In this document: piece after piece, positions 44,105 through 61,989 of the stretch
How the letters are laid out: the number at the start of each line of letters is the position of its first letter
Numbering within the stretch: position 1 is the first letter of the stretch
Source: Magnetococcales bacterium
GTDB taxonomy: Bacteria > Pseudomonadota > Magnetococcia > Magnetococcales > Magnetaquicoccaceae
NCBI GenBank assembly: GCA_015231915.1
Contig: JADGAR010000019.1
Location: forward strand, 1-64,000
Reading direction: 5' to 3'
Length of the DNA stretch: 64,000 nt
Notes under the pieces: model-generated
The model's input: the letters and a program-made list of their open reading frames with translations, nothing else
The model's database searches: none
Told to the model about the DNA's origin: nothing
Made by a program: the position numbers and the translations under genes

Positions 44105-45886
44105 GTGACGCAATTCGTCTTCGCCTTTTTTTGCCTGTGGTTGCTGTGGGCCTCCCCCCTGATGGCCGCTCACGGACTGAGTCTGGATGGAACCCTGAAA
44201 TATCCACCCGACTTCAAGCGTTTCGATTACACCAGTCCCGACGCGAAACCCGGCGGCACCGTCACCCTGCACGCCCTGGGGAGCTTCGACAAGATGAATC
44301 CCTACACCCTCAAGGGGTCGGCCCCCGATCACCTGGAACCCCTGGTCTTCGAACACCTGATGGTCGGTTCCATGGACGAACCCTTTTCCCAGTACGGCCT
44401 CCTGGCCAGGGATGTGGAGGTGGCCGCAGACGGCCTCTCCGTGACCTTCCGCCTGCACCCGGATGCGCGTTTTTCCGACGGGTCGCCCCTCACCGCCGAG
44501 GATGTCAAGTTCTCCCTGGAGACCTTGCAATCCGACAAGGCGCACCCCTTTTATCAATCCTACTGGCGGGACATCGTGGGCGTCGAGGTGCTTTCCCCCC
44601 AAGAGGTGCGCTTCCGTTTCCGTCAGGTCAACCGGGAGTTGCCCCTGATCGCCGGGCAGATTCCGGTGTTGTCCAAGGCCTTTTTCGCCAAGAATGTTTT
44701 CGGTCAGGAGGACCTCACCCCGCCTTTGGGTTCCGGCCCCTATGTGGTGGAGGAGTTCAAACCCGGCAAGATCCTGGTCTACAAGAAAAATCCCGCATAT
44801 TGGGGGGCACGCCTGCCGGTCAGTCAGGGATTTTACCAGTTTGATCGTATTGTCATCAAATATTACAAGGACCCGGTGGTCGCCCTGGAGGGGTTCAAGG
44901 CCAACGAGTACGACTTCATGCCGGAAAACAACTCCAAACAGTGGGCCAGGGACTACGAGGGGCCGAAATTCGCCGAGGGGCTGATCAAAAAGGAGACCCT
45001 CCCCCACAAGCAGGGCGCCGGGATGCAGGGGCTGATCTTCAATCTGCGCCGGTCGCTCTTTCAGGATATCCGGGTGCGCAAGGCGCTCTCCCTCGCCTTT
45101 GACTTCGAGTGGAGCAACGAAAATCTCTTCTACGGCCAGTATACCCGTTCCAACAGTTACTTTTCCAATTCGGAGATGGAGGCCACCGGCAAGCCGGGTC
45201 CGGAGGAACTGGCCTTGCTGGAGCCGCTGCGGCCCCATCTCGATCCTGCCGTTTTCGACGAGGCCGTGCTCGCCCCGACCACCAAGCCGCCCGGCTCCCT
45301 GCGTCAGAACCTGCGGGATGCGGCGCGGCTGCTCAAGGAGGCGGGCTGGACCCTGGGCGAGGACCGGGTGCTGGTCAATGCCAAAAAGGAACGGTTCGAG
45401 ATCGAAACCCTGCTTGCCTCGCCCCCCTTCGAGCGGATCCTGGCCCCTTACGCCGCCAACCTCGAGAAGCTGGGGGTGATCCTGAAATACCGTACCGTGG
45501 AGCCTTCTCTTTATCAAAGCCGGGTCCACGATTTCGATTTCGATACCATCATCAACGGCTTCGGGCAATCCCAGTCCCCCGGCAACGAGCAGCGCGACAT
45601 GTGGTCTTCGGAGAGCGCCGGCATCAAGGGCAGCCACAACCGCATCGGCATCCGCGAGCCGGCGGTGGACGCCCTGCTGGAGAAAATCGTCGCCGCCAAG
45701 AGCCGCAAGGAGCTGGTCACCGCCTGTCGCGCCCTCGACCGGGTGTTGCGCGCCGGCTGGTATCTGGTCCCCAACTGGCACATTCCCTATCATCGTCTGG
45801 CCTACTGGAACCGTTTCGCGCGGCCCGACACCCTGCCGCTCTACTACTCTCCCGACAGCTGGCTGATGACCTGGTGGGTGAAGTGA
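44105..45886 (+). CDS. yejA: Periplasmic oligopeptide/microcin C-type solute-binding protein (YejA-like)
   Basis: The 593-residue protein starts at a GTG and has a signal peptide (FVFAFFCLWLLWASPLMAAH). The mature sequence matches family-5 binding proteins of the Yej type: DFKRFDYTSPDAKPGG near 37, SFDKMNPYTLKGSAPD, FSDGSPLTAEDVKFSLETL and GSGPYVVEEFKPGKILVYKK. It should capture peptides for an ABC importer. The permease yejB follows one base after the stop. Confidence 0.92.
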   Translation: MTQFVFAFFCLWLLWASPLMAAHGLSLDGTLKYPPDFKRFDYTSPDAKPGGTVTLHALGSFDKMNPYTLKGSAPDHLEPLVFEHLMVGSMDEPFSQYGLLARDVEVAADGLSVTFRLHPDARFSDGSPLTAEDVKFSLETLQSDKAHPFYQSYWRDIVGVEVLSPQEVRFRFRQVNRELPLIAGQIPVLSKAFFAKNVFGQEDLTPPLGSGPYVVEEFKPGKILVYKKNPAYWGARLPVSQGFYQFDRIVIKYYKDPVVALEGFKANEYDFMPENNSKQWARDYEGPKFAEGLIKKETLPHKQGAGMQGLIFNLRRSLFQDIRVRKALSLAFDFEWSNENLFYGQYTRSNSYFSNSEMEATGKPGPEELALLEPLRPHLDPAVFDEAVLAPTTKPPGSLRQNLRDAARLLKEAGWTLGEDRVLVNAKKERFEIETLLASPPFERILAPYAANLEKLGVILKYRTVEPSLYQSRVHDFDFDTIINGFGQSQSPGNEQRDMWSSESAGIKGSHNRIGIREPAVDALLEKIVAAKSRKELVTACRALDRVLRAGWYLVPNWHIPYHRLAYWNRFARPDTLPLYYSPDSWLMTWWVK

Positions 45887-45887
45887 C

Positions 45888-46955
45888 ATGACCGCTTATG
45901 TCATACGGCGTCTTCTGCTCATGTTGCCCACCCTGCTGGGGATCATGGCTGTGACCTTTGTGGTGATTCAGTTCGTGCCCGGCGGGCCGGTGGAGCAGAT
46001 GATCGCCATGATCGAGCAGCGCGGTTCCGGCGGTGGCGGCGAGGTTGCCGGCGGGGGGGGGTCGGTCTCCGGCGGTCTCTACCGGGGGAGCAAGGGGCTG
46101 GATGCCGAGCAGGTCGAGGCCCTCAGGCGGCTCTACGGCTTCGACCGCCCCGCTCATGAGCGGTTTTTGCTGATGATCGGCAACTATTTGCGCTTCGATT
46201 TTGGTGAATCCTATTATTATCATCGATCAGTGACTTCTTTGGTGGTTGACAAGCTCCCTGTTTCAATATCGCTCGGCATCTGGACCTTTCTGATCACCTA
46301 TCTGGTCAGCATTCCCCTGGGGATCCGCAAGGCGGTGCGTCACGGGGACCGTTTCGATGCCGTCACCTCGGTGATCATCCTGGCCGGCTATTCGATCCCC
46401 GGTTTCGTGCTGGGGGTGTTGTTGATCGTGCTGTTCGGCGGCGGGAGTTTCTGGGATCTTTTTCCGATTCGCGGCCTGGTTTCCGATCACTGGGAGGCGC
46501 TCTCCTGGCCGGCGCGGATCATGGACTATCTTTGGCACATGGTGCTGCCGATCACCGCGTCGGTGGTGGGTTCCTTCGCGGTGATGACCATGCTCACCAA
46601 GAACAGCTTCCTGGAGGAGATCGCCAAGCAGTATGTCCTCACGGCGCGGGCCAAGGGCTTGACCGAACGGGCGGTTTTGTACCGGCATGTGTTCCGCAAC
46701 GCCATCATCCCCCTGGTGACCGGCTTTCCCGGTTCCTTCGTCTCGGCCTTTTTCAGCGGCAGCCTCCTCATCGAGACCATCTTCACCCTGGACGGTCTGG
46801 GGCTGTTGGGTTACGAATCGGTGATCAACCGGGATTATCCGGTGGTGTTGGCCACGCTCTATTTTTTTACGCTGCTCGGTTTGATAACGAAATTAATTAC
46901 AGATTTGACTTACGTAATTGCTGACCCCCGCATCACCTTCGAGAGCGCCCATTGA
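45888..46955 (+). CDS. yejB: ABC transporter permease (YejB-like)
   Basis: The 355-residue protein has the N-terminal IRRLLLMLPTLLGIMAVTF of dipeptide-type permeases, six spans, and the ABC-contact EEA-like loop AKQYVLTARAKGLTERAVLY near 245. The region between spans one and two is long, as in YejB. It should form a pore with YejE and be driven by YejF, but neither gene follows: the next gene is a histidine kinase that starts 4 bases later. The importer is therefore incomplete here. Confidence 0.92.
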   Translation: MTAYVIRRLLLMLPTLLGIMAVTFVVIQFVPGGPVEQMIAMIEQRGSGGGGEVAGGGGSVSGGLYRGSKGLDAEQVEALRRLYGFDRPAHERFLLMIGNYLRFDFGESYYYHRSVTSLVVDKLPVSISLGIWTFLITYLVSIPLGIRKAVRHGDRFDAVTSVIILAGYSIPGFVLGVLLIVLFGGGSFWDLFPIRGLVSDHWEALSWPARIMDYLWHMVLPITASVVGSFAVMTMLTKNSFLEEIAKQYVLTARAKGLTERAVLYRHVFRNAIIPLVTGFPGSFVSAFFSGSLLIETIFTLDGLGLLGYESVINRDYPVVLATLYFFTLLGLITKLITDLTYVIADPRITFESAH

Positions 46956-51369: not shown

Positions 51370-51399
51370 TTGACATGCTTGGCACGTATTTGGTATATT
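51370..51399 (+). promoter_or_regulatory. Sigma-70-type promoter for the outer-membrane barrel gene
   Basis: A perfect TTGACA at 51370-51375, an 18-base spacer and TATATT at 51394-51399 lie about 100 bases before the barrel start. The surrounding 51,229-51,483 is AT-rich and holds no gene. This is the strongest promoter seen in the window. Confidence 0.75.
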
Positions 51400-51501
51400 T
51401 GCAACAGTGCAGCAATTGAGTGATATAAATAACACATTGCAGTGTCCCGTCTGTGATGACGGTAACCTGACCATACTCTAGCGATGCAAGGAAGAAAAAA
51501 C

Positions 51502-52806
51502 ATGACCAAATTGAAAAAAGCCGTGGCCCTGCTGGGCGTCTCTGCGGCCCTGCTCGTGAATGTCCCGGAAGCGGGCGCAACCAGCTACACCTATGCGGGC
51601 ACCGGGGAAACCCTCAGCTGGTCCACCTCGTCGACCAACTTCTCGGTGACCGGCAACATGGGGAGCAACTTCACCTACGCCTTCAACCCCTCCTATACCC
51701 AGCTCGCCTTCTCCGGAAGCGTCTACACCGGGAGCAGCGGAGGCGTCGTCACCATCCCCAGCGGGTGCTATATCGACCTGACCAACTATCAGTTGAGCAG
51801 CGCCTGTACCTCGGCATTGAGCGGGATCATGTCCGGCAGCAACACGGTCTCCTCTTCCAGCGTCGGCGGCGTTTCCGAGGAGGAGCGCAAGGCGCTCCAG
51901 GAATACAGCACCACCGCCGCCCCGGCCATGCGTGCCGAGACCAAGGCCACCGTCACCCAGATCTCCAATCGCGTCTCCACCATCATGCGTCCTGCGGCCT
52001 TCTCCAAGCAGAAGACCGCCCAACTGCAACTGCACAACGAGCAGATGGGCCTCTCCTCCGGCAGCGCGCCTGCCGCCAACCGGTTCGGGGTGTGGGGCAA
52101 CACCCGCTACATCAACAGCCAGAACACCTTCTCCGCCAGCAAATACGACGGCTCCAACATCAGCTGGCTGGTCGGCGCCGACTTCCGTCCCATCCAAAGC
52201 CTGCTGGTGGGCATGACCGCCTCCAAGGATCATGCCGAATTCGACCTGGCCAGCCAGTTGCGCGAATCCGATACCACCACCGTGACCCCGTATGTGGGTT
52301 ACATGTTCAGCAACAACTTCGGCATCGACGCCCTGTTCGGCTATGCCTGGCTGAACAACACCCAGACCGCCAAGACCGGATTCCCCCTCATCGGGACCTA
52401 CCCGGACGCCGAGCGTTGGTTCGGCTCGGTTTCCGCCAACGGCTTCCTGCCCCTGGGCAACGATTGGCTGGCCTCCGGCAAGTTGGCCTACATGTACTCC
52501 CGCGAAAATCCGGATACCGGCAACGCCATCAAACTGGGACAGGTCTCCGTCGGTGCCGAGTTGAGCTACCTGACCTCCTTCGCGGAACCCTATCTCGGGG
52601 TCACCTATGCCTACGATACCACCACCAGCGCCTCCTCGACGGTCGGCGTGACCAACACCTCGGACCGGGATGATTACCGCTGGGCCGCTGGCGTGCGCGC
52701 CAATTTCGACGCCTCCTTCAAGGGCGATATCGCTTTGGAGAAGACCGTGGGTCGGCAGAGATACGAAGAGACCTCCGTCACCGCCAACCTGCGCTACGAA
52801 TTCTGA
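51502..52806 (+). CDS. Outer-membrane beta-barrel protein with autotransporter-like C-terminus
   Basis: The protein is 434 residues from the ATG at 51502 (AAGGA at 51488-51492). A signal peptide (LKKAVALLGVSAALLVNVPEAGA) is followed by a short Ser/Thr/Gly-rich passenger (about 30-130), a helix (EEERKALQEYSTTAAP) and about 250 residues of amphipathic strands (for example SWLVGADFRPIQSLLVGM and TTTVTPYVGYMF) ending in YEF with the terminal Phe typical of barrels. It is the 12-strand autotransporter-type domain with a very short passenger. A strong promoter and a strong terminator make it a single-gene unit, probably highly expressed. Confidence 0.85.
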   Translation: MTKLKKAVALLGVSAALLVNVPEAGATSYTYAGTGETLSWSTSSTNFSVTGNMGSNFTYAFNPSYTQLAFSGSVYTGSSGGVVTIPSGCYIDLTNYQLSSACTSALSGIMSGSNTVSSSSVGGVSEEERKALQEYSTTAAPAMRAETKATVTQISNRVSTIMRPAAFSKQKTAQLQLHNEQMGLSSGSAPAANRFGVWGNTRYINSQNTFSASKYDGSNISWLVGADFRPIQSLLVGMTASKDHAEFDLASQLRESDTTTVTPYVGYMFSNNFGIDALFGYAWLNNTQTAKTGFPLIGTYPDAERWFGSVSANGFLPLGNDWLASGKLAYMYSRENPDTGNAIKLGQVSVGAELSYLTSFAEPYLGVTYAYDTTTSASSTVGVTNTSDRDDYRWAAGVRANFDASFKGDIALEKTVGRQRYEETSVTANLRYEF

Positions 52807-52834
52807 GCGCCCTCGGGGACGGTTCGTGAAGTCG

Positions 52835-52869
52835 AAGGGGTGGACAGCGATGTCCACCCCTTTTTTTTT
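52835..52869 (+). terminator. Rho-independent terminator after the barrel gene
   Basis: GGGGTGGACA (52837-52846) and TGTCCACCCC (52851-52860) form a perfect 10-base stem with a GCGA loop, followed by nine T residues (52861-52869). It ends transcription of the barrel gene 29 bases after the stop and separates it from the caspase gene. Confidence 0.93.
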
Positions 52870-52954: not shown

Positions 52955-55477
52955 ATGCCTTCCATTCTGTCGCGCCTCGCGTTGGCGCTCGCCTGTCTTT
53001 ACGCTGCGGATCTGGCTGCCGGGCCGATGCCGGGGAGCATGCGCAGTGTCGTTTCCGCCATCCAGACCAATGTCCGCATGGCCATGCGCCCCTCGTTCAC
53101 CATCCGCTCCCGCCACGCGGCGGCGGTCAACGCGGTGGTCTTCGCGCCGGGTGGGGGATGGTTCGCCGCCGCCTCCGAAAACGGCGGGGTGCAGATCTGG
53201 GAGACGGTCACCGGACAGAAGGTGATCGATCTGGCGGGCAGCGGCCCCATCGAGCAGTTGTTGCTGTTGTCGCCCCGTGGCGGGGATGCCCGCGCCTTTT
53301 CCCGCGCCGAGCCGCAGGCCGAGGCCCCCCCCGCCAAGGCCAAGAAGGCCCAGCCCGCCGCGAAGGCGAATGCCGCGCCTCCTCCTCCGGCCCCGAAAGC
53401 GAGCGAGGCGGACAAACGTCCCGCGCTGGCCACCGTGGATGGCAGCGGGGTCATCACGGTATGGAACACGGTGACCGGATCCCCCCGGCACCGCCTGAGC
53501 GGCCATGCCGGCCAGGTGGCGGGTCTGGCGCTCCTGTCGGGAGGCCAGATGCTCTCCGCAGGCCAGGACGGCCTGTGCATCCGCTGGAACCCGGACAACG
53601 GCAGCGAGACGGGTCGTTTCCAACTCCCCGGACGGGTGCGCCATCTGGCCACCTCCCCGCAGGGCGATCGGGCCGCAGTGGTGCTGGATGGACGGTTGAT
53701 GGTGGTGGATGCGACCACCGGCGGGACCCTGTTCACCCTGGCCGAGCGGGACGCGGTGGCCGTGGCCTGGAGTCCGGACGGCGCCATGGTGGCCGCTGCC
53801 CTGGAAGGCGGCAGGCTCGCCGCCTGGCAGGCGAGTGGCGGCCAGCCCCTCTGGGAGGTGCGCGGCGGTGACTCCGATCCCACTGCCATCACCTACAGCC
53901 CGGATGGCCGCAACCTGGCGGTGGCGGACAAGGAGCAGGTCATCCGCGTCTGGAGTCTGGCGGGCGCGGACGGGGCACGCGCCTTTGCCCGCACCCAGCC
54001 TGCCGCTCCTGCCGCTCCTGCCGCCCCCGTCGCGACGCCACCGGGTCCCCCCAAAGAGATGCGGGTGGCCAATGGCAAGATCAATGCCCTGGTCGCCGCC
54101 CCGGGCGGCAACAACGTGATCGCCTCGGCGGGCGACGACAAGATGGTCCATTTCTGGAGCGGAACCGCCGGCAACGAACTCATGCGGCTGGTGGCCCTGC
54201 GTTCCGGTTGGGCCGCCGTGGCCCCGGAAGGGTTCTTCGACGGCACCCTGGACGGCGAAACCGAGGACCGCATCGATGCGGTGAGCTGGGATGTGGAGAA
54301 TCGCAGTTTTTCGGTGGACGGTTTTCTGGAGAATTATTTCCGGCCCGGCCTGCTGGGGCGTGTGCTCTCCGGCGAGCGGATGAATCTGGCGGGCCGCCCC
54401 AATGTCCAGGAAGGATTCCCCCTGCCGCCCAAGATCTCCCTGGAGGTGGGGGATACCGACCCGGCCACCGGCATGGTCTCGGTGATGGCCACCGTCGAGG
54501 ATCAGGGCGGCGGCGTGGGAGAGGTGCGCCTGTTTCACAACGGCAAGGTGGTGGATGCCGCCCGCGCCGAGGAGTTGGGGGCCACCCGGGGCGGGGCGCG
54601 GCAAATCCGCTTCAAGGTCCCGGTGATGGACGGCGCCAATTCCATCCAGGGGGTGGCCCTGAGCAAGGACCGCATCGAAAGCGAACTGGCCAAGGTGCTC
54701 CATTCCCACTCGGGTGGCGGCAACGCTCCGGCCACCATGCACATCTTTGCGGTGGGGATCAACAAGTACAAGAATCCGGAGATGAATCTCAACTTCGGGG
54801 TGCCCGACGCCAAGGGGGTGCGCAATTTCTTCGCCGCCGCCAGGCCTGCCACCGTGGCCCGTTCCATGGTGGACGAGATCTACGACGAGCGGGCCACCAG
54901 GAACGAAATCCGTGACCGCCTGTCCGTGCTCAAGAACAGCGCACCCCAGGACACGGTGGTCGTCTATCTGGCTGGCCACGGCGAGTCGATCGAAGATGCC
55001 TGGTATTTCATTCCCAACGAGGTGGACATGGGCGATGTGGACCGTCTGCATCAGGTGGCCCTCTCCTCCGGTCAGTTGCGGCAGGCGATCTCGGAAATGG
55101 GCGCGCGCTATATCCTGTTGTTGCTGGACGCCTGCAAATCCGGGGCGGCGATCAACCAGTTCGCCAAACTGGACAACAACCGCACCCTGGCCGTGCTCTC
55201 CCGTTCCACCGGCATCCATGTGGCGGCAGCCACCACCGGCGAGCAGTACGCCAGCGAGTTGGGCCAGTTGGGCCACGGGCTGTTCACCTATGCCCTGCTG
55301 GAGGGGTTGAAGGGGAAGGCGGATACGGCCCCTGTCGATGAGCGGATTTCGGTCAAGGAACTGCTCGACTACCTGCGCGTCCAGGTCCCGGCGCTGACCC
55401 GGAAGTACCATACCGACATGCAGGATCCGGTGATCAGCATGCGGGGCGACGACTTCGTCGTGCTCAACAGGCGGTAA
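52955..55477 (+). CDS. Exported WD40-caspase-fold protease (Peptidase C14-like)
   Basis: The protein is 840 residues from the ATG at 52955, with AAAGGAG upstream. A signal peptide (RLALALACLYAADLAAG) precedes WD40-like repeats (about 50-410; for example AAAVNAVVFAPGGGWFAAAS and WSPDGAMVAAALEGG) broken by Ala/Pro-rich linkers, a beta-sandwich-like part (about 480-590) and a caspase domain (about 590-840). The catalytic pair is H675 in YLAGHGE and C727 in LLLDACKSG. The fold is that of orthocaspases/metacaspases. Export to the periplasm is unusual for this family. It is followed by the TPR-CHAT gene, 129 bases later. Confidence 0.92.
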   Translation: MPSILSRLALALACLYAADLAAGPMPGSMRSVVSAIQTNVRMAMRPSFTIRSRHAAAVNAVVFAPGGGWFAAASENGGVQIWETVTGQKVIDLAGSGPIEQLLLLSPRGGDARAFSRAEPQAEAPPAKAKKAQPAAKANAAPPPPAPKASEADKRPALATVDGSGVITVWNTVTGSPRHRLSGHAGQVAGLALLSGGQMLSAGQDGLCIRWNPDNGSETGRFQLPGRVRHLATSPQGDRAAVVLDGRLMVVDATTGGTLFTLAERDAVAVAWSPDGAMVAAALEGGRLAAWQASGGQPLWEVRGGDSDPTAITYSPDGRNLAVADKEQVIRVWSLAGADGARAFARTQPAAPAAPAAPVATPPGPPKEMRVANGKINALVAAPGGNNVIASAGDDKMVHFWSGTAGNELMRLVALRSGWAAVAPEGFFDGTLDGETEDRIDAVSWDVENRSFSVDGFLENYFRPGLLGRVLSGERMNLAGRPNVQEGFPLPPKISLEVGDTDPATGMVSVMATVEDQGGGVGEVRLFHNGKVVDAARAEELGATRGGARQIRFKVPVMDGANSIQGVALSKDRIESELAKVLHSHSGGGNAPATMHIFAVGINKYKNPEMNLNFGVPDAKGVRNFFAAARPATVARSMVDEIYDERATRNEIRDRLSVLKNSAPQDTVVVYLAGHGESIEDAWYFIPNEVDMGDVDRLHQVALSSGQLRQAISEMGARYILLLLDACKSGAAINQFAKLDNNRTLAVLSRSTGIHVAAATTGEQYASELGQLGHGLFTYALLEGLKGKADTAPVDERISVKELLDYLRVQVPALTRKYHTDMQDPVISMRGDDFVVLNRR

Positions 55478-55606
55478 GCCGCAGGGGAAAAAATGGGGAT
55501 GGGGCCATTCTTGAATTGAAATCACCCCCATAAAGGGATAAATTCATTGTCAAGAATGCCCCCCTCCCCAACATCGCCAGAGGCGTACCCCTTGGAGGTT
55601 AGATCC

Positions 55607-58600
55607 ATGTCAGTCGAACGGTTGCGGAGTGTCCGCCGGGGAACCGGTTTGCTGCGTTGCTTCCTGTATGGCATGGCCATTGTGCTGTGTCTGGGATGGC
55701 CAGCGCCACTTCGGGCCGCAGAAACCCCGGAGTCGCTCTTTGCCGCCACCCAGCGTGCGGCCACGAGCGGAGACGCGGAAGCCATGATGCTGTTGGGTCA
55801 TCTCTATGCCCGCGGGACCGGGGTGGCGAAGGATGCGGGCCAGGCCATCAAATGGTACAGCCTGGCCGCCGGGCGTGGTCATGCCGAGGCCGCTGCCGCG
55901 CGTGACCGCCTGTTGGCCGAAACCGGACGCGTCTCTCCCCTGCCGATCATCACCGCCTACGAGGAACCCCCTCCTGCCCCCGCGCCGTCGTCCAGGGCCG
56001 GAGCGCAATCGTCGCCTCCCTTCGAGATCGTGCCCTATTCCCCGGACGGACCCCCTCCACTTCCCGTGGCCGCTCCCGTTGCCGTGCCGTCATCCGATCC
56101 CCCCCGGCGGGTGGAGAGCGAGAGCGCCCCCGTCCGTCGCGCGGTGGCCAGGCCGCAACAACCAGTGTCGCCACGGGCAGCCCGGAACGCACCCGTCGCC
56201 AAATCGCCACGGGTGAGCAGGCCGCTCCCCGCCAAGCCCTCCCGGCAGGTGGTGGCCAAGGCGGAGCAGGCGTCACCAGCGCCAACCCGTGGTCGCCGGA
56301 GCGCGCAACCGGCCCCTGGAGCGGCGGAGCAGGCGACCGGCAAGGAGGCAGCCGCCGCCCCGGAAAAGCCCGAGATCGATCTTGCCCAGTTGTGGGCCAG
56401 GGAGGGTCAGGAAGGGGTCATGGCACCAAAGGCCGTGCCCCCCTTGCTGACGCCGCCCGCCCTGCCTGCGGTCGATGCCGCGGATGCGGCTGGCGCAAAG
56501 GAGGCGGAGGCCGCCGGCAAGGCCTTGCAGGGGAACCAGCCCAGAGAGTCCCTGGAGCGCTACCGCAAGGCGGTGCTGCTGGCGGTGGCGGCGGGCAAGA
56601 GCGACCTGGCGGGAGCGTATGCGCAAGAGATCACCAATATTCTCAATCTCCCCCCCGCCTGGGCGGAAGAGGCATTGAACCAGGCCAGCGCCGTGCCCCA
56701 GGAGAAGGCCGGGGCGGCAGTGATGTGGTCCAAGGCCAGGGAGGGCGCCCTGGAGGCTGCGGGCAAGGGGGATTTCGAGGGGGCGATCCGACTGGGAAAA
56801 CAGGCCCTGGATCTGGCGCGGGAGAATCTCGGGGCGCGGCATGCCGCCTCCTTCATGACCGCGCGGGAGTTGGGGAGGGTTTACGCCATGGCGGGCAAGC
56901 CGGCAGAGGCCGAGCCGCTGTTGCGGCAGGCCGCCGACGATGCCAGGGCGATCCTGGGCGGCAACCACCCCGAAACCGTCAACGCCGACAAGGCCCTGGC
57001 CGAGTTTCTGGAATCCCGGCTCAAGTTCGCCGATGCCCAAGAGATCCACAAGAAGTCGCGTCCGGCCATTGCCGGGAAACTGGGGGCCGATCATCCCCTG
57101 GCGCTGGACAACGAGATGGCGTTGGCCCGGGTGCAGGTCAACCTCTCCCAGGCCGACGAAGCGATCCGGCAGTTGACGGCGACTTGTCCCCGCGTGGCGG
57201 CCACCCATGGCCATCACCATCCGGAGACCGCCAGGTGTCTGGAGCAGTATGCCACCGCGCGGATGGCCCGGGAGGCGTTCCCCGAGGCCCTGGCGGCCTA
57301 CGAGCAGGAGGCGGCGATTCTGGCCGGGATGACCCCCGACGGGGATCCCGCGCGTTTTCCCGCCCGCATCGGCATGGCCGAGGCCAACCGGAGGATGGGG
57401 CAGGCGCAAAAGGCGCGCGAGATCCTCGATGCCCTGCTGGGCGAGGCGGCCAGGGGGCAGGCCGGCAAGGATCCTGCTTTGCTGGAGGCCAGGGCCGGTC
57501 TGGTGCGCGCGTTGACCGATCTGGGAGAGTTCCAGGCCGCCGAGACCACGGCGAACGCCTTGCTGAAAACCATGCAGGAAAGCCTGGGCGCGGAGCATCC
57601 GTCCACCGTGGCCCTGCGCGCGGACCTGGCCGGGATTCACCAGAAGCTCGGGCGCCTGGCCGAGGCGGAAAAGGAACTCAAGGAGATCCTGGAGCAGTAC
57701 CGCAAGGCGTTCGGCGAGGCCCATCCCACCGCCATCACCACCATGAACAACCTCGGCCAGGTCCTGGAGGAGGCGGGCCTGTACGACGAGGCCGAACCGC
57801 TGTTGCGTCAATCCCTGACCCTGGCCCAAAAGCATCTGGGCAGCGCACAGCCCTTGACCTTGACCACCATGAACAACCTCGCCCTGCTGCACGAGAGCCA
57901 GGGCAATTTCGACAAGGCGGAACCGCTCTATCACAACGCCATCGACCTTTCCCGCAAGCGGTTGGGGGAACGGCATCCCGACACCGTGGCGGTGATCAAC
58001 AATCTGGCCTATCTGCAACTGCTGCGTCAGGACTACGCCAAGGCCGAACCCCTGTTCAAGAAGATCGCGGAGATCTGGCGCAAGCATCTGGGTGACAAGC
58101 ATCAGCGCACCCTCAAGGCCATGAACAACCTGGCGCGGGTCACCCACCACCTGGGCAGGCACAAGGAGGCGGAGGCGCTTTTCGTCAAGACCCTGGATCT
58201 GCGGCGTCAAGCCCTGGGCGAGCGGCACATGGATGTCATGCGCTCCATGCACGACCTGGCCCTGCTCTATCGGGACATGGGCCGGATGAAGGAGTCCGAG
58301 GAACTGCTGCGCAAGACCCGCAGCCTGGACGAGGAGGTGCTTGGGCCGTTGCACCCCTATACCTTCGAAACCATGAACACCATGGCCTCGGTGCTGGAGA
58401 AGGGCAAGAATCCGGAGGCGCTTTCCGTGCGCAAGGAGATCTTCGCCCGCCGCACGGCCTTCTTCGACCGCATGCTCTGGTCCACCGGCGAGAACGCCCG
58501 CGAGGGGTACATCCGCCTGCATCAGCCGGAGTACGACGATCATCTGGCCCATCTGGCCCGGCTGGATGGGAGCACCGGCGGACGCGAGGTGCTGGAGGCG

Positions 58601-60133
58601 GCGTTGCAACGCAAGGGGATTCTGCTCAAGATCGCCTCGGAGATTCGTCAGGTCGTTCAGTTGGGCAAGGATCCAAAACTCACGGTCATAGGCGAGCGCC
58701 TGACCGCCACGCGCAAGCAGTTGGCGGCCCTGACCCTCTCCGGCCCGACCCAGGAGAGCGGGGAGAAGCACCTGGAGGTCATCCACGGCCTGGAACAGGA
58801 GGTGGACCGCTTGCAGCAGGAGCTGGGGCAGGCCAGCAAGCGTTTCCAGCGCACCTCAGGCAACGTCTCGGTGGCGGAACTGGAAAAACATCTCCCGGAG
58901 AAGGCTGCGTTGGTGGATTTCCTGGTTTTTCGTGACGGGCAGAAGACCAAATTGCTGGCCGGCATCCTGAAGAAGGAACAGGGCCAGCCGCACTTCGATC
59001 TCGTGGTCTACCCGGACATGGAGGCGATCCAGAAGGCGGTGACCGACTATCGCGGCATGATCCAGGACGAGGAGGCCGAAGAGGAGGCCATGAAGAAGAT
59101 GGGCCGTGCGGTCTACGACCTGGTCTGGGCGCCGGTCAAACAGGCCATCGGCGGGCGGGAACAGGTCTATGTGGTCCCGGACGGCCTGCTCAACATCCTG
59201 CCGTTTCCGGCCCTGGTGGATCCGGAGGATGTCTATCTGGCCCGTGGCACGGATCTGCACATGCTCACCTCGTCGCGGGATCTGCTGCCCTCCGGCCAGC
59301 CGGAGGCCACGGGGAATTATCTGATCATGGCCGGTCCGGATTACAACTCGGACAAGGTGAGCAGTGCCCAGACCCAGGCCCTCAAAGAGGCGGAAGGGCG
59401 TCGTTCCGCCGATTTCAAGCAGGGTCTGCGGGCCTTTTCCTCCGGCATGCGCGGGTTGCACTTCGATCCCCTGCCGGGGGCGGAGAAGGAGGGGAAACTC
59501 ATCGCCGGGCAGGCCAGCGACAAGAAGAAGCTCAATACCATTCTGATCCGGAACGAGGCTCAGGAGGCAGCGTTGCAATCCCTCGCCGCGCCGCCGGAGA
59601 TCGTGCATATCGCCACCCACGGCTTTTTCCTCAAGCCGGACGACAGCCTGAGGAAGCGGCTGTTGAAGCTGGCGCGCGGTGGGGATCTCAAGCTGCCGCC
59701 GCCGGGTGACAATCCCCTGCTGCGCTCGGGTCTGGCCTTTGCGGGGATCAACGCCAACGCCAAATTCCTGGGCGAACTGGATACCGGCAACGACGGGGTG
59801 CTCACCGCCCTGGAGGTGCTGGGTCTGGATTTGACCGGCACGCGTTTGGCGGTGCTTTCCGCCTGTGAGACCGGTCTGGGCGAGGTCCACGAGGGGGAGG
59901 GGGTGTACGGCCTGCGCCGTGCCTTCCAGGAGGCGGGCGCCCAGGCGGTCATCTCCTCCTTGTGGGAGGTGAGCGACGCGGGCACCCAGGCCCTGATGAC
60001 CAACCTCTATGCCCGGCTCGGCGACGGCATGACACCCCATCAGGCGCTGCGCGAGGCGCAACTCGACCTGTTGGAGTCCGAGGAGTGGAAACATCCCTAC
60101 ATCTGGTCGGCGTTCATGATGGTGGGGCAGTGA
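55607..60133 (+). CDS. Exported TPR-CHAT protease-like protein
   Basis: The protein is 1508 residues from the ATG at 55607 (GGAGG at 55593-55597). After a signal or anchor segment (CFLYGMAIVLCLGWPAPLRA) come Sel1-like repeats (about 40-105), a Pro/Ala-rich basic linker (about 115-270), 12 or so kinesin-light-chain-like TPRs (about 380-960; for example TTMNNLGQVLEEAGLYDEAE and NNLARVTHHLGRHKEAE), a helical linker and a CHAT domain (about 1100-1508). The catalytic pair is H1338 in IATHGFFL and C1420 in LSACETGLG. CHAT proteases are caspase relatives that cleave specific partners. It overlaps the TPR-SPOR gene by GTGA. Confidence 0.93.
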   Translation: MSVERLRSVRRGTGLLRCFLYGMAIVLCLGWPAPLRAAETPESLFAATQRAATSGDAEAMMLLGHLYARGTGVAKDAGQAIKWYSLAAGRGHAEAAAARDRLLAETGRVSPLPIITAYEEPPPAPAPSSRAGAQSSPPFEIVPYSPDGPPPLPVAAPVAVPSSDPPRRVESESAPVRRAVARPQQPVSPRAARNAPVAKSPRVSRPLPAKPSRQVVAKAEQASPAPTRGRRSAQPAPGAAEQATGKEAAAAPEKPEIDLAQLWAREGQEGVMAPKAVPPLLTPPALPAVDAADAAGAKEAEAAGKALQGNQPRESLERYRKAVLLAVAAGKSDLAGAYAQEITNILNLPPAWAEEALNQASAVPQEKAGAAVMWSKAREGALEAAGKGDFEGAIRLGKQALDLARENLGARHAASFMTARELGRVYAMAGKPAEAEPLLRQAADDARAILGGNHPETVNADKALAEFLESRLKFADAQEIHKKSRPAIAGKLGADHPLALDNEMALARVQVNLSQADEAIRQLTATCPRVAATHGHHHPETARCLEQYATARMAREAFPEALAAYEQEAAILAGMTPDGDPARFPARIGMAEANRRMGQAQKAREILDALLGEAARGQAGKDPALLEARAGLVRALTDLGEFQAAETTANALLKTMQESLGAEHPSTVALRADLAGIHQKLGRLAEAEKELKEILEQYRKAFGEAHPTAITTMNNLGQVLEEAGLYDEAEPLLRQSLTLAQKHLGSAQPLTLTTMNNLALLHESQGNFDKAEPLYHNAIDLSRKRLGERHPDTVAVINNLAYLQLLRQDYAKAEPLFKKIAEIWRKHLGDKHQRTLKAMNNLARVTHHLGRHKEAEALFVKTLDLRRQALGERHMDVMRSMHDLALLYRDMGRMKESEELLRKTRSLDEEVLGPLHPYTFETMNTMASVLEKGKNPEALSVRKEIFARRTAFFDRMLWSTGENAREGYIRLHQPEYDDHLAHLARLDGSTGGREVLEAALQRKGILLKIASEIRQVVQLGKDPKLTVIGERLTATRKQLAALTLSGPTQESGEKHLEVIHGLEQEVDRLQQELGQASKRFQRTSGNVSVAELEKHLPEKAALVDFLVFRDGQKTKLLAGILKKEQGQPHFDLVVYPDMEAIQKAVTDYRGMIQDEEAEEEAMKKMGRAVYDLVWAPVKQAIGGREQVYVVPDGLLNILPFPALVDPEDVYLARGTDLHMLTSSRDLLPSGQPEATGNYLIMAGPDYNSDKVSSAQTQALKEAEGRRSADFKQGLRAFSSGMRGLHFDPLPGAEKEGKLIAGQASDKKKLNTILIRNEAQEAALQSLAAPPEIVHIATHGFFLKPDDSLRKRLLKLARGGDLKLPPPGDNPLLRSGLAFAGINANAKFLGELDTGNDGVLTALEVLGLDLTGTRLAVLSACETGLGEVHEGEGVYGLRRAFQEAGAQAVISSLWEVSDAGTQALMTNLYARLGDGMTPHQALREAQLDLLESEEWKHPYIWSAFMMVGQ

Positions 60134-61989
60134 AGCCGCGTGCGTGGGTCGTGTGTCTGGCGCTGCCCGGCTGGCTGATCGCGGTGGCCGCGCAAGCTGC
60201 GGACAGCGCCCTGACGGTGCTGGAACAGAACGAAAAGCGGCTCGCCCAGGAGGCCGCCGACGCGGCGGGACGTTTCGGAGCCGACAGCCTCAATACCGCC
60301 ACGGCCCGGCTGCATCTGGCGGAATTTCATATCGCCGGGGGACGGGACAAGGAGGCAAGGACCGCCCTGCGCGAGGTGGTGGCGATTCTGATCAAGCGGC
60401 ATGGGCCGGATCACCCGGATGTGGCGGACCTGCATACCCGGTTGGCGGGGATCGAGTTGCGTCTGGGCGACATGCAGGCCGCGCGGGAATTGCTGGAAGG
60501 AGCGACCGCTGCCCTGGAGCGGCGTCTGGGGGCCGGGCACCTGAATACCGCCAGCGCGCGGATCAATCTGGCCCGACTGCTGTTGAGCGAACCGGACAAA
60601 CACGAGCGCGCGGCGACTCTGCTGGAGGCATCGATTCCGGTGCTGGAACGGACCCTGTGGCCGGAACATCCGAGGGTGGCCGATGCCTGGATGGTCCTGA
60701 CCCGCGTTCGTTTGCTGCAGGGCCGTTTGGAGGAGGCCATCGAGACCGTGGGCAAGGCGGCGCGGATCCGCGAACAGGCCCTGGGTCCGGATGCCCCCCT
60801 GACGGGCGAGGCGCTGCGGGAGCGGGGACGGATCCTGGCGATGCAGGGGGAACACCAGGCCGCAGAGGTGTTTTTGCGTCGGGCCGTGGAGATTCTGGAG
60901 CCGTTCGCCAGGAACGAACCTTTGGAACTGGCCGAGAGTCTGGAACGCCTGGGCGAGTCCCTGGTGGCGCGGGAGCGCCACGGGGAGGCCGAACCACTGT
61001 TTGCGAGGGTGCTGGAACTGCGCGAGCGGAAGTTGGCCGGGGATCACCCCTTGGTGCTGAAGTCCGTGAACGATCTGGCACTGCTGCATTTGACCAAACG
61101 GGAGTTCCCGAAGGCTGCGGCTCTCTTTCGGCGTGCCCTGGAAGCGACCGAAAAGCGTCTGGGCAAGGATCATCTCCAGGTGGCTTTCATTCAGAACAAT
61201 CTGGCGGTGGTCGCCTGGCAGCAGGGGAACAAGGCCGAGGCCGACCCCCTGTTCGAGCGGTCCATGGCCACGGCGGAACGCCATTTCGCCAAGGATGCCC
61301 TGGGCCTGTCGGATTGGTTCGCCAAGTCGGGGGCGATCCTGCTCAAGGAGGGGGTCACGGAGCAGGGGAAGCGTTTTCTGGAGCGCGCCGTGACGCTTCT
61401 GGCCACTGCGTATGGCAAGAATCATCCCGGCGTGGAGAAGATCAGGCGTTCCATCGAAGCGCTGCAAAGCGCAGCACCCGTCGCCCCGGTTGTCCCAGTC
61501 GCGGCGCGGCAACCGGCACCCGCACCGGCACCCGCACCCGCACCCGCACCCGCACCCGCACCCGCACCCGCACCGGCACCCCCCCCCGTTCCTGTCTCCG
61601 TTCCGGTGCCCCTCGACCCGGCCCCTTTGCCGGTGGCCATGCAGGAGGAGGTCACCAAGGCCCTGCTTGCCGCAGCGTCGGCCCCATCCCCCGTGGAGGC
61701 GGTCAAGAGCGCACAGGTCAAACGGCCCTGGCCATCGGACAAGGCGAAATTCGTCCTGCATCTCAGTTGTCTGGCCGTCAACTCGCCGCATCTGCCGCGC
61801 ATGGAGGAGAAGATGACCGCCCTGAAATTGCCGTTTTACCGCAAGATCATCCAGAATGGGGAAAACACCTTCGATTGCGGTTTTTCCGGACCCTACGCCG
61901 AACAGCAGGAGGCCGAGGAGGCCATGGCGCGCATCAAGACCGAGGGGGTCAGCCCCGACCCCATGCTGAAACGGTACACACGCTACTAG
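60130..61989 (+). CDS. Exported TPR protein with Pro-Ala linker and SPOR-like domain
   Basis: The protein is 619 residues from a GTG at 60130, which overlaps the CHAT stop. A signal peptide (VVCLALPGWLIAVAAQA) is followed by TPRs of the same kinesin-light-chain type (about 25-455), an (Ala-Pro)-rich tract coded by an 11-copy six-base repeat, and a C-terminal SPOR-like domain (about 535-619; KFVLHLSCLAVNSPHLPRME, DCGFSGPYAEQQEAEEAMA). SPOR domains bind denuded glycan strands of septal peptidoglycan. It may place its partner protease at the cell wall. No protease motif is present. Confidence 0.85.
   Translation: MKPRAWVVCLALPGWLIAVAAQAADSALTVLEQNEKRLAQEAADAAGRFGADSLNTATARLHLAEFHIAGGRDKEARTALREVVAILIKRHGPDHPDVADLHTRLAGIELRLGDMQAARELLEGATAALERRLGAGHLNTASARINLARLLLSEPDKHERAATLLEASIPVLERTLWPEHPRVADAWMVLTRVRLLQGRLEEAIETVGKAARIREQALGPDAPLTGEALRERGRILAMQGEHQAAEVFLRRAVEILEPFARNEPLELAESLERLGESLVARERHGEAEPLFARVLELRERKLAGDHPLVLKSVNDLALLHLTKREFPKAAALFRRALEATEKRLGKDHLQVAFIQNNLAVVAWQQGNKAEADPLFERSMATAERHFAKDALGLSDWFAKSGAILLKEGVTEQGKRFLERAVTLLATAYGKNHPGVEKIRRSIEALQSAAPVAPVVPVAARQPAPAPAPAPAPAPAPAPAPAPAPPPVPVSVPVPLDPAPLPVAMQEEVTKALLAAASAPSPVEAVKSAQVKRPWPSDKAKFVLHLSCLAVNSPHLPRMEEKMTALKLPFYRKIIQNGENTFDCGFSGPYAEQQEAEEAMARIKTEGVSPDPMLKRYTRY
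61515..61580 (+). repeat. Eleven-copy six-base repeat (CGCACC/GGCACC)
   Basis: Eleven tandem units of six bases, eight CGCACC and three GGCACC, lie in frame in the TPR-SPOR gene and code an Ala-Pro tract. Changes in copy number by slippage would alter linker length two residues at a time without breaking the frame. Confidence 0.92.

Follow-up and report, generated by a model that had tools for sequence, protein, structure and literature searches.

The part of this locus worth pursuing is a conserved two-gene association between an exported WD40-caspase and a mini-autotransporter. The window, meaning the whole stretch of 64,000 nucleotides analysed here, is contig C44 of a 4.02-Mb genome from the order Magnetococcales. 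An earlier sequence-only reading had taken three of its genes as one protease system, and its finding did not include the autotransporter gene, which lies directly upstream of the caspase gene. In what follows, A denotes the WD40-caspase gene, B the TPR-CHAT gene, C the TPR/SPOR-like gene and barrel the mini-autotransporter gene. Judged by gene order among relatives, A, B and C are a local line-up of recent arrangement, not a conserved set.

Gene layout of the locus

The three adjacent open reading frames for the caspase-like, CHAT and TPR proteins lie on the same strand, as previously described, and the GTGA overlap of B and C was likewise confirmed. The features of the region are as follows.

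51370..51399, + strand: sigma-70-like promoter ahead of the barrel gene (11/12)
51484..52806, + strand: barrel, a mini-autotransporter with signal peptide, N-terminal passenger, linker helix and 12-stranded beta-barrel (PF03797, AF2, Foldseek, conserved neighbour of A)
52834..52863, + strand: terminator-like hairpin with T run, between the barrel gene and A
52955..55477, + strand: A, an exported WD40 - Ig-like - caspase (C14) protein with catalytic H675/C727, 840 aa
55516..55544, + strand: promoter-like site ahead of B, also in the sister genome
55607..60133, + strand: B, an exported Sel1/TPR-CHAT protein with H1338/C1420, 1508 aa
60130..61989, + strand: C, an exported TPR protein with a divergent SPOR-like C-terminal domain, GTG start, 619 aa

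A strong terminator lies upstream of A, and the 129 bp between A and B contain the promoter-like site conserved in the sister genome (contig G001:C50 of the MAG WMHbin3). Together, the terminator at 52834-52863 and the promoter-like site at 55516-55544 suggest that barrel and A, and likewise B, are transcribed at least partly separately here. With a terminator between them, barrel and A are not clearly one transcript.

The exported WD40-caspase

To our knowledge, little has been established about the substrates of bacterial caspase homologues, and most models assign these proteins to cytoplasmic cell death. The product of A has WD40 repeats that an Ig-like region links to a C14 caspase domain. 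The Pfam Peptidase_C14 profile matches at 40.2 bits against a cut-off of 21.4, which places A within C14, and its His/Cys dyad, rightly named in the sequence-only reading as H675 and C727, is invariant in 21 homologues. Sec-type N-termini of A, B and C were called by inspection and hydropathy, which supports the envelope location predicted from their export signals. A signal-peptide-like start is found in nearly all complete homologues of A, and export is predicted to be conserved across the family. The mature N-terminus of A carries a conserved amphipathic segment with an R/K-P-x-F end, just ahead of the propeller.

In its C14 domain and invariant His/Cys pair, A resembles other prokaryotic caspase homologues (orthocaspases and metacaspases, Peptidase C14). 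The likeness extends to its WD40 repeats and N-terminal signal-like helix, since WD40 is the commonest extra domain in a published survey of these homologues (PMC3501461). An exported caspase had been regarded as unusual, but the same 2012 survey records many N-terminal signal-like helices (PMC3501461), and this genome encodes at least four further caspases with signal-peptide-like starts. What sets A apart from the homologues in the literature searched is its WD40-Ig-caspase order, its amphipathic segment and its autotransporter partner gene, a combination for which no description was found there. Cleavage after basic residues is reported for prokaryotic caspase homologues (PMC6426788).

Other caspase loci occur in the same genome. 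Contig G000:C48 (L217, 4281-10286) has three genes that overlap or abut, with a lipoprotein-like protein, a long, 1037-aa exported WD40-caspase and a 574-aa exported caspase as their products, and contig C49 (L218, 4241-7230) carries a divergent pair of exported caspases.

The mini-autotransporter partner

The barrel protein is matched by PF03797 at 38 bits in Pfam. AF2 places 12 strands at residues 200-439 and, ahead of them, a helix at 132-168; the mean pLDDT is 69, with most of the barrel at 75-94, and the alignments behind both AF2 models of this analysis were shallow (17 and 21 rows). The passenger, at residues ~34-117 and about 100 aa long, has low pLDDT. The top Foldseek matches are the translocators of NalP, Hbp, EstA and EspP (E 2e-13 to 2e-11). 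The predicted fold thus shows the 12-strand translocator barrel and N-terminal helix of type Va autotransporters such as these. It differs from them in a very small passenger, a caspase gene as partner and a sequence identity of 11-16%. In the barrels as a group, the linker helix just ahead of the first strand is basic, amphipathic and rich in Arg/Lys. Classical autotransporters are cut in or near their linker helix.

Conservation of the caspase-autotransporter pair

The caspase region of A was searched in named genomes, together with a profile search with the barrel. In this census, which was seeded with A and used a barrel model built partly from A's neighbours, 31 distinct loci have an A of the short type, and in 24 of these the barrel gene adjoins A or is one gene removed from it. 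No barrel neighbour was detected in the other seven, some of which are at contig ends, and no barrel match occurred among longer A relatives of Bacteroidota and others. The paired loci span Magnetococcia, Alpha- and Gammaproteobacteria and Desulfobacterota (Magnetococcales, Desulfamplus, Methylobacter, Methylomonas, Dongia and other Alphaproteobacteria). In most of them the two genes stand in tandem with barrel upstream of A. Barrel lies in tandem downstream of A in L049 and L059, divergent to A in L050 and L052-L054, and convergent in L056 and L124. Adjacency kept through such rearranged order and orientation argues for a functional tie.

Presence and absence were also compared in 41 Magnetococcales genomes, comprising this one and 40 relatives, with barrel counted as present at E<=1e-20. 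Of the 16 genomes that carry A, 15 also have barrel; of the 25 that lack A, three have it (Fisher 1.8e-7). Because relatedness weakens such p-values, the counts are also given by genus (8/0/1/8, p 3.7e-4). Sampling 398 genomes of the phylum yielded only three more A carriers outside the order; one of them has a barrel neighbour and is nearly identical to L165. When plasmids were searched for A, the matches were distant only, and no autotransporter-like gene is annotated near the two that were inspected, but the search did bring up the Sulfitobacter cluster described below.

When the N-terminal segments of A and barrel were compared in 23 pairs, 11 were more alike than shuffled controls at p<0.05 (mean z 2.2). 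Cognate-specific matching was not established, as cognate pairs do not score consistently above non-cognate ones. The shared segment may reflect a general amphipathic character, and as a sign of a tie the resemblance is suggestive only.

The pairing itself suggests that the outer membrane is where the protease acts. It provides a specific candidate for an outer-membrane partner or substrate, and with it the function of an exported caspase becomes directly testable.

The TPR-CHAT and TPR/SPOR-like families

Gene B starts at an ATG at 55607 with GGAGG upstream, and its product contains one Sel1 repeat, a proline-rich stretch, ten TPR_12 stretches and CHAT. The CHAT match scores 257 bits, and the predicted catalytic residues proved right, with H1338 within HIATHG and C1420 within SACETG. 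Across most genomes of the order, the CHAT end is 53-76% identical. The comparison with TPR-CHAT proteins of type III-E CRISPR systems (Csx29, Craspase; PMC9729208) extends to the combination of TPR with a CHAT His/Cys protease. It fails beyond that: Csx29 is only a weak relative (NCBIfam E 0.044), B is predicted to be exported, and there is no CRISPR context. The score of 12.6 bits against a cut-off of 300 rules out B as a CRISPR TPR-CHAT protein. A defence system was likewise rejected, since PADLOC matches were to generic caspase/TPR only.

The neighbours of B-family genes elsewhere are of other kinds. The gene mtxA has been reported as specific to magnetotactic bacteria and as followed by a CHASE2-cyclase gene (PMC4439547). 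It lies directly after a B-family gene in 14 loci (L080-L084, L093-L101) from several families of Magnetococcales, with a CHASE2-adenylate cyclase gene next in most of them. We know of no report of a CHAT protease in the mtxA cluster, and the link may matter to the magnetotaxis field. This genome departs from the pattern, its mtxA being on contig C115 and B elsewhere. In addition, a second B paralogue of the genus precedes giant RTX proteins that bear marks of type I secretion (L076, L077, L104, L105, L107), and B-family genes stand beside type I secretion genes in three genomes (L078, L087, L088). These neighbours resemble the LapA/LapG system of giant-adhesin release and suggest that an exported CHAT protease could play a part like that of LapG. 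Unlike LapG, the B family is CHAT and not C93, and RTX or secretion neighbours were not seen at the locus studied here. The C93 domain occurs in 19 of 41 genomes in a mixed pattern that does not discriminate, and the LapG-like role is kept as a lead only. From the mtxA/CHASE2-cyclase and RTX/type I secretion neighbours we conclude that B is an envelope protein from an old family, one that is partnered elsewhere with a periplasmic signalling cluster and with giant secreted proteins rather than with the caspase.

Two further observations concern CHAT genes. The sister genome has the N-terminal region of its B distributed among three frames (L045, 2-3100), by assembly error or decay. Another contig of the present genome (L216 on G000:C55, 2167-9957) encodes a protein of ~2600 aa with a CHAT end, which has homologues in several relatives.

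Gene C encodes TPR_12 repeats (Pfam). Its assignment as a SPOR protein is plausible: the aligned C-terminus keeps a SPOR-like pattern (VVHLSCFA...FECVFxGPF...A) with two conserved cysteines, but PF05036 is not called on C itself, and in all five homologues its match, identically placed, scores 16.2-19.5 bits, just short of the cut-off of 21. Relatives of C are found near gatCAB in several members of the genus (L060, L061, L067, L068), and in this genome C is missing from the gatCAB locus. A move of C to its place behind B would be the simplest reading of these positions.

Gene order among relatives

All three families are common in the 41 genomes, yet at separate loci (neighbourhoods of 15 A, 11 C and 33 B loci were read). 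A and B adjoin in 2 of 16 A-bearing genomes, namely this one and its sister WMHbin3, whose contig ends inside B. B and C adjoin only in the window; the relatives, with 33 B loci and 11 C loci, show no such case, and the A-B-C order appears in no other genome. This absence is the outcome that the sequence-only reading had itself named as contradicting its three-gene system.

The flanking genes indicate how the line-up may have formed. In genus members L072 and L075, the B orthologue directly follows yejA/yejB (oligopeptide transporter). In the window, yejA/yejB at 44105-46955 is followed by genes for a histidine kinase, an HD response regulator, a cNMP-binding protein and an Hpt protein, and then by barrel, A and B. 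The barrel-A block therefore appears to have been inserted upstream of B.

Proposed mechanism and alternative explanations

Our overall proposal, held tentatively and at somewhat less than even confidence, is that barrel and A form the unit of selection rather than A-B-C, that A acts on the barrel's linker helix, and that B and C are separate. After export A would act in the periplasm, with the propeller and the Ig-like domain serving as sensor or adaptor. It would be held near the barrel, possibly through the N-terminal amphipathic segment that resembles the barrel's own. Once activated, the caspase would cut the Arg/Lys-rich linker helix (residues 132-168) between the passenger and the 12-strand barrel, and the passenger would be released or the barrel unplugged or opened. 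Contact, cleavage, direction of control and trigger are all steps that we infer. Cutting of the linker by A is the most economical model given the basic nature of the helix, the cut site of classical autotransporters and the preference for basic residues reported for prokaryotic caspase homologues. B and C would be separate envelope proteins placed beside the pair in this lineage, and C is proposed to be a TPR-SPOR protein, located at the septum or bound to peptidoglycan, that is usually found on its own. In a more general form, exported WD40-caspases would sense an envelope signal and cut the plug or linker helix of a dedicated mini-autotransporter, freeing a surface peptide or opening an outer-membrane pore. 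Such a mechanism, widespread in Proteobacteria and comparable to caspase-activated inner-membrane pores, is a speculative extension that we consider rather improbable.

Other readings of the pair fit parts of the same evidence. A could be an envelope stress or self-killing protease for which barrel is one of several envelope substrates or partners, within a stress module that also includes FecR-like, OmpA and hydrolase neighbours. OmpA-domain genes do lie near A in L118, L132 and L056 (by sequence also in L047 and L135), exported alpha/beta-hydrolase-like proteins in L046, L049, L059, L118, L132 and L173, and small exported proteins of FecR-like appearance without a Pfam match in L124, L154, L165, L180, L184 and four Magnetococcales loci. 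All of these fit an envelope role, but they are less constant than barrel, and the stress-protease reading is doubtful. Barrel might instead be a carrier and not a substrate: the N-terminal helix of A would thread the pore and thereby bring the caspase to the outer membrane or anchor it there. The conserved amphipathic helix and following P-x-F motif of mature A, like the barrel's pre-barrel helix, would suit such a route. The barrel already has its own predicted linker helix in front, however, and the likeness of the two helices is modest and not cognate-specific, so we judge threading unlikely.

The cascade originally envisaged, with A, B and C forming one envelope protease system targeted to the septum by the SPOR domain of C, draws on their shared strand, their predicted export and the 4-bp overlap of B and C. 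It also finds an echo on a plasmid of Sulfitobacter sp. SK012 (L214, 12819-25736), where one cluster holds four exported proteins, namely a WD40-caspase, an alpha/beta hydrolase (DUF900), a caspase and a Sel1-CHAT protein. That cluster is a partial parallel and not the same locus as the window, and it implies that caspase and CHAT neighbours can arise independently. Against the cascade stand the uniqueness of the three-gene order, with A/B shared only with the sister genome and B/C found only here, and the other conserved neighbours of each gene. The promoter-like site of its own ahead of B and the three frames over which the N-terminal region of B is spread in the sister genome tell in the same direction. 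The three-gene protease cascade is thus very unlikely. By analogy with the plasmid cluster, a weaker form may still apply, with exported caspases and CHAT proteins able to act within a shared compartment or process.

Beside these readings, the FecR-like-looking proteins deserve a remark of their own. They are ~220-300 aa long, stand beside the caspase or the barrel gene in L124, L154, L165, L180, L184, L050 and L052-L054, and possibly represent an undescribed family of small exported proteins.
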